From Reinekea blandensis MED297 (GTDB lineage Bacteria > Pseudomonadota > Gammaproteobacteria > Pseudomonadales > Natronospirillaceae), in NCBI RefSeq assembly GCF_000153185.1, contig NZ_CH724155.1, positions 165,218-229,217 of the forward strand: a DNA stretch of 64,000 nucleotides, read 5' to 3'. The notes beneath the pieces are model-generated. The model saw nothing but the letters and a program-made list of their open reading frames with translations. It had not been told where the DNA came from and did not search any database. How positions within the stretch are numbered: the stretch's first letter is position 1; every line of letters starts with the position of its first letter. The translations under genes were made by a program, and so were the position numbers. Below are positions 46,440 through 63,057 of the stretch, in pieces.

Positions 46440-47048
46440 ATGCGTGTTTCTGAAAAATCCCTGAATGAGTATCCGTTGTTTATCCGTCCGTTTTTCTGGC
46501 GTCAGCGCCGTAAATACGGTCAGGTACTCAAGCCGGGTCTGCTGTGGGGGCGAAGCCCCTGGTTGTTTGCCACGGTCGCCTTGCTTTATGGCGCGTTGGA
46601 TCGGCGTCGATCTCCGTTGACGCCGGTATTGCGCTCATTGGTGACGGTGCGCGTCTCGCAGATCAACTGGTGTGCTTTCTGTGTTGATATTAACTCCAAC
46701 ACGCTGCTGCAACGGGCCAATGCACAGGACAAGGTCGATGCGCTGTCGCATTGGGCCGAAGCCACCTGTTACTCGCAGGAAGAACGCCTGGCGCTGGAAT
46801 ACACCGAAGCGGTCACCCGTTCGGATGTTCAGGTGACGGATGAGTTAATGAAACGACTGAAGGACGTGTTCAGCGAGGACGACATTGTGGAACTGACCGG
46901 CCTGATTGCCTTTCAGAATCTGTCGAGTAAGTTTAATGCCGCGTTGGATGTGCCGGCTCAGGGGTTTTGTCAGCTTCCCGATCCAAGCTTAGGGCCTGTT
47001 AACACTAATTTCGTGGATTCTGCCGAGATCAAAGATTTACACAGCTAA
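46440..47048 (+). CDS. AhpD-like/carboxymuconolactone decarboxylase-family protein
   Basis: A 202-residue helical protein, ATG 46440 with a GAGGTG Shine-Dalgarno. TVRVSQINWCAFCVDINSNT holds the CxxC typical of AhpD-like proteins, and EERLALEYTEAVTRSDVQVT and LIAFQNLSSKFNAALDVPAQ are family blocks. It may be a peroxidase-type redox protein. The last 20 residues (from about 184) are encoded by an inserted repeat element (46990-47099), so the native C-terminus has probably been replaced. Confidence 0.85.
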   Translation: MRVSEKSLNEYPLFIRPFFWRQRRKYGQVLKPGLLWGRSPWLFATVALLYGALDRRRSPLTPVLRSLVTVRVSQINWCAFCVDINSNTLLQRANAQDKVDALSHWAEATCYSQEERLALEYTEAVTRSDVQVTDELMKRLKDVFSEDDIVELTGLIAFQNLSSKFNAALDVPAQGFCQLPDPSLGPVNTNFVDSAEIKDLHS

Positions 47049-47099
47049 GCAGAGCGCGCGTGATGTCGTGATTCGACCTGAACAAACGATAAGGCCCTA
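46990..47099 (+). mobile_element. Structured repeat element, short derivative (copy C)
   Basis: 110 bp beginning TAGGGCCTGTTAACACT and ending GGCCCTA. The interior matches the left half of the 268-bp copies (CTGCCGAGAT..., then ...CGACCTGAA) and then stops, so it is an internally deleted relative. It sits between two convergent genes, supplying the last 20 codons of the AhpD-like gene and the stop codon (TAG) of the HD-GYP gene. A small hairpin, GTGG/CCAC in the long copies, is GTCG/CGAC here, a compensated change. Confidence 0.75.
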
Positions 47100-61235: not shown

Positions 61236-61686
61236 TCACATGTGATGTCGATAGGTACGCAGGTCATTCGCCTGCACGTTCAGGTCTTTCTTCTGCCATT
61301 CCGGCATCTGATCAATCATTGTTGAGGCGCGGCGTACGCGCATCTGCAGTTCGCGTTGTTTCCATCCCTTGCGGATCTGAATCATCATCCATTCCGGAAT
61401 CTGAGCCAGGAAGTTAGGGTCTGATAAGACTATGTGCATCCAATCTGCCGAGTTTAAAACCGTTCACGACAAGGCAGAACGCGCGAGTCGTGGTTATTCC
61501 ACCTGAGCAAGTGATAACGATGACGTGAACGGTTTTAATCCGGCCCAAAGGGTTGGTTTGTGCACTTCCAGAGACGTCGTTGTTCGTCTTTCGTGTGGAG
61601 CAACCACAGGTCACTCCTTACGCCTCGCTCTGAAAGCGCACAAAGCCAACAGAATGGACGCACATAGTCTTATCAGGCCCTGCCAT
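61236..61686 (-). pseudogene. Small 60-codon gene split by a repeat element after its start codon
   Basis: On the minus strand an AAGGGAGA Shine-Dalgarno and ATG (61686) are followed after one base by the 268-bp repeat element. The remaining coding sequence continues at 61414. Removing 61415-61682 joins ATG-G to ACTTCCTG and gives an intact frame MDFLAQIPEWMMIQIRKGWK and on to RTYRHHM. In the present state the ORF could start from an ATG inside the element (61439), giving MHIVLSDPN instead. No family recognised. It is divergent from the LysR gene. Confidence 0.7.
61415..61682 (+). mobile_element. Structured repeat element, 268 bp (copy A)
   Basis: It begins TAGGGTCTGATAAGAC and ends GTCTTATCAGGCCCTG. 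The outer stem 61421-61437 pairs perfectly with 61660-61676. Inside are two further arms (AAAACCGTTCAC with GTGAACGGTTTT; TTGTGCACTTCCAG with a near-complement) and two small hairpins (GTGG-TTATT-CCAC and TGTGG-AGCAA-CCACA). There is no protein-coding content of its own. It is homologous to copy B over the interior and is in the opposite orientation. Probably a non-autonomous mobile element. Confidence 0.85.
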
Positions 61687-61865
61687 GAAGTGTCTCCCTT
61701 TATGGTTGGGGTGAGCGTTACCCCGGTGAAGATCAGGGCGGTGTCGGACACCCCGATCTGAAAGACTGGAACAGTGGTCATTTTGAAGCGATCCAGGGTA
61801 AAATACCAACGATACCTCCTTACAGATTCTATAAGCCCTCCTTATAGTTAAACCGGTGATCAGAA

Positions 61866-63057
61866 ATGAGTTTTCCAAACCTTCCGGATCTGCAGTATTT
61901 CCGTTTTTTCGAAGCGGCTGCACGTCTGGGCAGTTACACGAATGCAGCGTCAGAGCTCAATGTGACGCAAGCGGCGGTCAGCCAGCAGATTCGTAATCTG
62001 GAGGCCCGGTTAGGTGTAAAACTGTTCCATCGACAGGGTCGGAGGATGGTGTTAACCGAACAAGGTCAGCTTATGCTTCCGGAGATTCAGGATGGGCTTG
62101 AGCTGCTGCAGTTATCCATTCGTAAACTCGACCACTATAAACAACCTAGGGCCTGTTAACACTGTTTCTGTCCATTCTGTTGGCTTTGTGCCCTTTCAGA
62201 GCAAGGCGTGAGGAGTGACCTGTGGTTGCTCCACACGAACGACGAACAACGATGCCACTGGAAGGGCACAATCCAACCCGTAGGGCCGGATTAAAGCCAC
62301 TTACGCCGTCGTTATCACTTACTCAGGTGGAATAACCACGATTCGTGCGTTCTGCCTAGCCGTAAATGGTTTTAATCTCGGCAGAATAGACAGAAACAGT
62401 GTTAACAGGCCCTAAGTCCTCAGTGTGACCATGTTGCCCAGTTTTGCTTCGCGTTGGCTGGTGCCCCGGCTCTGGAAGTTCAATCACCGTCATCCGGAGA
62501 TCGAGCTGAGACTGCACCCCTCCCACCAACAGGTTGATCTGCACCGCAGCGACATCGATCTGGCCATTCGGTTGGGTGAATCCCGCTACCCGAATCTGAA
62601 CTGCGAGCCGTTGTTGCAGGAATACGCTTACGCGGCCGCCTGCCCGCGCATCGCCGCGCAAATCAATGACCCCGCCGATGTTTTTCGCTTCATGCTGATT
62701 CACGGCTGGGTCGACAGCGGCATGAACTGGGAGAGCTGGTTTGAGGCGACCGGGGTCGATCCGAGCGGCCATCCGATTCGCAAGCAGGTGATTAACGAAG
62801 GCGGCATTACCATCTACATGCTGTTGTCAGGGCATGGCATTGCCGTGGTGCGTAATACCCTGGCCCGCGCACTGGTGGAAAACGGACAGTTGGTGCCTTT
62901 ACTTGGCATCACGATTGCAAGTCACTTTCAGTACTATTTGCTGCATCGGCATGAACTCGCAGATAACCCCAACTTGAATGCTTTCAAAAATTGGTTGGTT
63001 GAAGAAGTAGATGAGTTTACCCGCAATTACTCTAGAGCCGGAATTGTTGCGCTCTGA
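61866..63057 (+). pseudogene. LysR-family regulator (GcvA-like) disrupted by a repeat element
   Basis: The N-terminal part (61866-62146) encodes the helix-turn-helix FRFFEAAARLGSYTNAASEL, VTQAAVSQQIRNLEARLGVK. The C-terminal part (62415-63057) encodes the effector domain VLSVTMLPSFASRWLVPRLW, RSDIDLAIRLGESRYPNLNC, LLSGHGIAVVRNTLARAL. Between them lies the 268-bp element, whose first codons add ...PRAC and a stop. Deleting 62147-62414 joins CC to A then GTC CTC and restores one frame of about 307 codons. Both parts look otherwise undamaged, so the insertion is recent. In the present state only a truncated DNA-binding domain can be made. Confidence 0.88.
62147..62414 (-). mobile_element. Structured repeat element, 268 bp (copy B)
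   Basis: It begins TAGGGCCTGTTAACACTG and ends CAGTGTTAACAGGCCCTA. The outer stem 62153-62172 pairs perfectly with 62389-62408. The interior is about 85% similar (by eye) to copy A read in the opposite direction, with the same two arms and two small hairpins. Its length is exactly that of copy A. It lies inside the LysR gene. Confidence 0.88.

Follow-up and report, generated by a model that had tools for sequence, protein, structure and literature searches.

The window analysed here is a stretch of 64,000 nucleotides of the genome of Reinekea blandensis MED297, in which a repeat search detected inverted repeat arms at 61414-61681 and 62148-62415 (268 nt, 85% complementary). The arms correspond to two mutually inverted copies, A and B, that are 85% alike and measure 264 bp each from GGG to CCC, which bears out the original prediction of twin elements of equal length with a homologous interior in opposite orientation. 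Copy A (61417-61680, plus strand) is a complete element with arm 1 first. The left strand of its outer stem (61417-61446) pairs with the right strand (61651-61680), and between them lie, on the same strand, the arm 1 hairpin (61447-61543; stem AAAACCGTTCAC/GTGAACGGTTTT, tip with GTGGTTATTCCAC), a centre reading CCC-AAA-GGG (61544-61552) and the arm 2 hairpin (61553-61650; tip with GTGGAGCAACCAC). Arm 2 is an inverted, diverged homologue of arm 1, as judged from the alignment of the family rather than from copy A alone. The inner arm AAAACCGTTCAC/GTGAACGGTTTT, which had been noticed before, is real and was recovered by the repeat search. In the predicted folds of A and B, two arms branch from an outer stem of about 30 bp, and we refer to these sequences as Y elements. 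As single-stranded DNA they reach -69.2 kcal/mol (copy A, z -9.4) and -77.0 kcal/mol (copy B, z -12.2), and for either copy 0 of 200 dinucleotide shuffles were as stable.

Copy B (62149-62412, minus strand) is also complete and lies, inverted, within the gene of a LysR-type regulator, which is found in two pieces (61866-62159 and 62425-63057) with copy B between them. The nearest named relative found via the neighbouring LysR protein was Reinekea sp. G2M2-21 (71% identity), whose LysR gene (L016) is unbroken and aligns on either side of copy B, the two blocks of the alignment being 4 nt (GGAT) apart. Since this gene aligns on both flanks, copy B is an insertion in the gene. It has TA on both sides (62147-62148 and 62413-62414), at a site too diverged between G2M2-21 and MED297 for the alignment to prove a duplication of the TA. 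Copy A is flanked by TTA on the left and TGC on the right, i.e., it lacks the TA on the right. A third copy, shrunken, lies at 46992-47097 (plus strand) between TTA and TAG, and consists of the left end and most of arm 1 followed by GGCCC. Altogether, the window contains 4 instances of the end pattern at no more than 3 mismatches, where 0.05 are expected. Copies A and B overlap only small listed reading frames and, at 264 bp, have too little room for a transposase gene. The predicted start and first codons of a 67-aa frame on the minus strand (61236-61439) come from the left end of copy A, which may have given this small neighbouring gene a new start.

The ends of each copy pair with one another even though they differ between A and B. 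Copy A has GGGTCTGATAAGACTATGTGC on the left and, read as the reverse complement, GGGCCTGATAAGACTATGTGC on the right, and copy B has GGGCCTGTTAACACTGTTTCTGTC on both sides. The pairing had been described as perfect, which was too strong for copy A: its outer stem has a T/C mismatch at the 4th base and an A/G mismatch further in.

The check for further copies found them both in the same genome and elsewhere. The genome of MED297 (4.53 Mb in 10 contigs, assembly 96.8% complete) gave 15 matches to copy A and 25 to another of its elements, L002 (both counts include end-to-end self matches). Six of the copies are full length (L001-L005, L009) and the remainder partial; with no more than 2 mismatches, the ends YTAGGGCCTGTTAAC occur 40 times and the reversed pattern 11 times. 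The copies are on several contigs, and a segmental duplication producing the twins was thus rejected. Among the other genomes of the genus, 1 of 6 had a match, to a 34-base end, and a search of the rest of the family with L009 gave a match in 0 of 21 genomes. Further away, 11 of 369 genomes of the class have complete elements with the ends GGGCCTGTTAACA...TGTTAACAGGCCC, and 14 of 398 genomes of the phylum match a looser end pattern (0 in the reversed control of the first and in the control of the second; the two genome sets overlap). Eight of these 14 belong to a single family outside the class (f208). Searching for a 50-nt motif of the tip, at no more than 3 mismatches, gave 15 positive genomes among the 369 and 18 among the 398, with 0 in the control. 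The Y element is present in Gammaproteobacteria and in a family outside the class. Genome G371 has 256 end matches at no more than 1 mismatch and 1 in the control.

Complete elements are also present in viral contigs and in plasmids of Halomonas, Azotobacter and Pseudomonas aeruginosa, and a Methylophaga plasmid has a partial match. The viral contigs are merely one of the collections searched, and we rejected the idea of a prophage element. Single elements were also used as queries: copy A had 0 matches in phages or plasmids; L092 had 0 in phages and E. coli and matched 4 plasmid records, none with 80% coverage; L138 had 0 in E. coli or phages and matched 4 plasmid records, including the one it comes from. 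Long exact tip patterns gave 0 matches in the viral contigs. The family of A and B is gene-less mobile DNA that is widespread and able to fold into a Y.

To describe the family we collected 72 elements. Copy A, whose ends deviate from the end pattern at two positions, is for that reason outside this collection. The 37 elements that are non-redundant at <90% identity form the alignment A2, from which copy A, the 292- and 279-bp forms and elements at least 90% identical to a kept one are excluded, and in which 8 elements were oriented by hand. The length is 263-268 bp in 62 of the 72 elements, 292 bp in nine and 279 bp in one, a peak to be read within the preset range of the end searches (246-276 bp in the class set, about 245-275 bp in the phylum set; tip searches were unlimited). 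The nine long elements are all from G371 and have an additional hairpin in one arm. TA is present on both sides in 29 of the 36 readable non-redundant elements (of 37). The exact sequence CCCNNNGGG lies at most 1 nt from the centre in all 37.

The two arms are, as judged from their sequences, diverged inverted copies of one unit. Comparing tip 1 with the reverse complement of tip 2 gave z>3 in 34 of the 37 elements (lowest, 0.85), with a mean score of 6.4 against -12.3 on the same strand and -7.6 for the complement only; the homology of the whole arms, stems included, is weak (z>3 in 20 of 37). Recurrent features of the tips in the alignment are AAGGC, a small hairpin and AACGC. Averaged over columns, the majority share reaches 0.69 and 0.77 in the tips, 0.61 and 0.70 in the arm stems, 0.93 in the outer 15 bases and 0.50 in the remaining, inner part of the outer stem. 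Most elements of A2 were found via their ends, so that the conservation of the ends is partly built in, just as that of the tips is in the tip searches. Among the matches listed, genomes of six families have the tip AAGGCGCGAGGAGAGAAGTTTGGTNNNTCCAAATGAACGACGAGCAACGC without a mismatch. The 50-nt tip at no more than 3 mismatches is absent from 4 of the 11 genomes found with the end pattern in the class (MED297, G231, G232 and G311) and from 8 of the 14 found in the phylum, MED297 among them, so that strong tip conservation is a property of a subgroup and not of the whole family. The tips vary less than the stems, and a recognition site is their probable role. In elements with GTTGAC ends (L138, L139) the TTTGG-type tip is in arm 1, and L092-like elements (GTTAAC ends) have it in arm 2; the types seem to have swapped arms between these groups. 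Judged by eye, the 50-nt tip of L256-L285 could form Watson-Crick pairs stacked with tandem G.A pairs beside an AAC bulge.

These traits bear on an alternative account of the family, a plain MITE whose interior is irrelevant and whose length and structure result from common descent and self-correction of the palindrome. The IS5-like ends described below and the TA flanks suit it, as does the fact that over the whole set the tips are just modestly more conserved than the stems. It accounts poorly for a CCCNNNGGG that is central in every aligned element, for a size that stays constant even between elements <60% identical, and for a 50-nt tip that genomes of six families share exactly in spite of different stems and, in part, different ends; moreover, unpaired or mismatched positions persist in the tips, which self-correction should remove. 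We regard this account as unlikely.

The original prediction also held that pairing itself is maintained, either because structure is selected for or through conversion between the arms, and the family alignment supports it. In a structure of 106 pairs, 85 pairs are altered on both sides; paired cells with double changes number 715 (229 +/- 12 after shuffling), the covariation score is 0.461 (0.152 +/- 0.006 after shuffling, and only 0.08-0.12 when partners are slid by 1-3 columns) and standard pairs make up 85.3% (66.8% after shuffling), comparisons that are not probabilities because the structure was derived from the same sequences and the rows are related. RNAalifold, unaided, found 75 pairs in A2, 54 of them with compensated changes. 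A pairwise test that is free of any consensus gave 22 compensated pairs between elements at least 95% identical (about 0.7 expected) and 1341 at 80-90% identity (about 103 expected), counts in which pairs of elements enter in both directions and are not independent, and which exclude the 292- and 279-bp forms. Covariation, the check proposed at the outset, is thus strong in 37 non-redundant elements from many genomes. Two outcomes had been set beforehand as counting against the idea, a lack of further copies and arms that mismatch as freely as the loops, and neither was found.

Covariation on this scale is what a mobile structured non-coding RNA gene would show if a transcript took the Y fold and its stems were kept by selection at the RNA level. 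The conservation of the tip over 50 nt in one subgroup and the predicted RNA folds of 18 elements (-114 to -193 kcal/mol) agree with such a gene. If one strand acted as a functional RNA, G.U should be tolerated above its complement A.C. Mismatches over all stems, on the strand with arm 1 first, number 47 for G.T and 37 for A.C (p 0.33). Arm 1 alone has an excess of G.T (19 against 6; p 0.015, uncorrected), and arm 2 has 12 G.T and 20 A.C. One-sided changes leading to G.T and A.C are close in each of six identity bins (49/66, 63/53, 576/580 at 80-90% identity, 2432/2475, 6748/7238, 3286/3469). The mismatch counts thus give no sign overall of a one-strand RNA, and we rejected it on this absence of a strand preference. 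Furthermore, the tips of the two arms lie on opposite strands, and Rfam has no match in the window at its gathering thresholds; with lax thresholds, the best hit of L009, L092 and L138 was to a microRNA family (E 0.017), and all hits were far below gathering. We consider an RNA gene very unlikely.

Pairing at the level of DNA can be kept by selection or by copying between arms. Stepwise drift under selection passes via G.T or A.C, and compensated changes should then favour transitions. The share of transitions (292- and 279-bp forms excluded) is nearly the same in compensated and single changes at 90% identity or more (0.679 and 0.675) and at 80-90% (0.614 and 0.630), as copying predicts and as would also be the case in a plain MITE. 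At 75-80% identity, it is higher in compensated changes (0.607) than in single ones (0.539), and in all three bins it exceeds that of unpaired changes (0.637, 0.537 and 0.487), as stepwise compensation predicts. Copy A has four transversions, each present on both sides and seen in none of the five remaining full-length copies of MED297, for which copying is the easiest explanation. In elements at least 95% identical, stems change at 0.020 per site and unpaired positions at 0.053; copying alone does not account for this difference, which suggests selection too. We read these results as copying and selection acting together, with a transition test that leans to copying without being clean. In our best reading, pairing is kept at the DNA level, with arm-to-arm copying likely.

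How the elements move is suggested by their ends, which by eye read YTAGGGCC. The original prediction proposed looking for a larger element with the same ends and a transposase; such an element, with almost the same ends, exists elsewhere and was not found in the genome of MED297. On a viral contig (L173), an insertion sequence that is 858 bp long (864 bp if CTA/TAG is included) has the ends GGGTCTGTTGACGTTTT and GGGTCTGTTGACATTTC and encodes a 249-aa protein that matches the IS5-family transposase NF033580 (E 1.5e-82) and the Pfam domains DUF4096 and DDE_Tnp_1. A search with this transposase gave 10 matches in five places of genome G143, and the three places that were opened have the ends GGGCGTGTTAACACTAAT. 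Near-identical ends, GGGCCTGTTAACACTA, are found on the Y elements of G143. Like the Y elements, these IS5-family insertion sequences have their ends beside TA; unlike them, they span about 800-860 bp and carry a DDE transposase gene. Inspection by eye of two of the insertion sequences (L173 and L218) revealed no Y arm. In L218 (about 1139-1947, G143), the transposase frame as read by eye enters the terminal repeat of the insertion sequence and ends in ...SVNTP, so that its end sequence is also coding.

Relatives of the L173 transposase were found in 1 of 10 genomes with Y elements (G143); the other nine, that of MED297 included, had none. DDE_Tnp_1 (PF01609) is present in 10 of 24 such genomes, and MED297 has no match. 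Loss of the mobilising enzyme, its divergence beyond recognition or an enzyme of another kind may explain this. In the tip subgroup, the core is found with several ends: the tip search recovered it with GGGCCTGTTAAC, GGGCCTGTTCAC, GGGTCTGTTAAC and GGCTCTGTTGACGTTT, and in G042 with AGAGCCTGTCTGTGAATAAATC; GAGCCTGTCTGTGAATAAATC, in G042, exemplifies a quite different end on the same core. The G042 elements among those listed are 256-268 bp long, with shorter derivatives, and their end type is absent from the viral contigs and plasmids searched; the 30 G042 loci were read for their ends alone, and the 30 G371 ends were viewed to about 310 bases inward. Among the matches listed, 60 tip loci comprised 7 that were cut, one without inverted repeat and 52 that could be read. 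In 46 of the 52, the two ends agree at 22-26 of 26 positions, and in six (L270, L320-L322, L334, L339) at just 12-16, counts biased to agreement as the best-matching boundary was chosen.

This variety of ends and the many Y-bearing genomes without a match to an IS5-type transposase are what one would expect of a single-stranded DNA element whose folded arms are recognised by an HUH/Y1 transposase, a tyrosine recombinase or replication proteins, the IS-like ends being secondary. Strong pairing without a one-strand RNA signal also agrees with it. TA flanks and inverted ends are nevertheless features that the Y elements share with DDE insertion sequences, and we hold such an element to be quite improbable. 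Since the ends and the target resemble those of the IS5 type, the Y elements are probably moved by ordinary insertion-sequence enzymes.

The copies also decay in a recognisable manner. Among the G371 loci that were opened, there are several remnants that are explained by deletion between short repeats. Perfect 18-bp palindromes GGGCCTGTTAACAGGCCC flanked by TA are present at three sites (deletion between two GTTAAC), and forms of about 30 bp stop at an internal GGCCCT. Forms of 226/227 bp are common to three sites, which is compatible both with movement once formed and with repeated origin. There are also 63- and 93-bp forms among L107-L159. The short forms of G371 and its 292-bp form are apparent footprints of palindrome deletion.

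Several known systems share part of this picture. In integron attC sites, structure is retained while sequence drifts, and it is the folded single strand that matters; attC sites have RYYYAAC / GTTRRRY boxes, are used by IntI and, unlike the Y element, are not a complete transposable unit with such ends. MITEPsy1 of Pseudomonas syringae (100 nt, ends GGAAGGTCTGAAAAAGCC, 4-nt target repeats; listed with the targets CTAG or YTAA and as family 'IS5?') is, like the Y element, short, gene-less and provided with inverted ends; the Y fold, the covarying stems and the conserved tips set the Y element apart from MITEPsy1 as described in the consulted parts of that paper (PMC3189936). REPINs and the REP/RAYT systems are likewise gene-less palindromic mobile DNA, built on REPs that the portions of the literature consulted describe as palindromes of 20-40 bp tagged with GTAG or CGTC, whereas the Y element has about 265 bp and inverted ends flanked by TA (PMC3116915, PMC3733652). 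QMITE2 of Coxiella is a MITE with a strong fold too, its transcript being drawn as such, and has target repeats of 7-9 bp; in the account of it that we consulted, it differs from the Y element, whose fold is conserved across genera (PMC10969869). In the open-licence papers searched, we found no description of this Y element, and it has no match in Rfam. Literature searches by description and by end sequence led, among others, to a paper on an acetic acid bacterium and to papers that, judged from their listings, concern other subjects. Judged from open-licence papers and Rfam only, the family is apparently undescribed.

We therefore favour, as the likely explanation, that A and B are non-autonomous elements of the MITE type, moved by IS5-type transposases acting in trans, with pairing held at the DNA level by copying between arms. 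Several traits of a MITE are present, namely small size, no transposase gene, inverted ends, copy number and insertion in host sequence; a duplicated TA target and an interior derived by deletion from a parent insertion sequence are putative further ones. Transposases resembling NF033580 would recognise the outer 12-18 bp and insert the element at YTAR, duplicating the TA. The interior would be a separate module made of two homologous inverted arms with imperfectly paired tips and a centre of CCCNNNGGG. When a single DNA strand folds back, a mutation in one arm could be copied into the other, by template switching or heteroduplex repair, and we propose that the stems stay paired because fold-back lets mutations pass from arm to arm in this way. 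Some selection for the fold would act alongside the copying. A more tentative extension, which we think rather doubtful, makes the Y core the true replicating unit: its folded single strand, with the tip present as two inverted copies, would be recognised by a host or transposon protein, and arm-to-arm copying would let it swap both terminal repeats together and so ride on different transposases in the course of time.

MITEs are usually viewed as empty remnants of insertion sequences. Across many genomes, the interior of the Y family keeps a constant size and fold, and one subgroup has a core whose conservation exceeds that of some of its ends. Being present in many copies, these elements provide material with which selection for pairing can be separated from copying between arms, two processes that are normally confounded, and are a good natural test case for the evolution of palindromes in DNA. 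The family also illustrates that strong covariation is by itself no proof of a functional RNA. If the swapping of ends is true, a gene-less element can outlast any single transposase.
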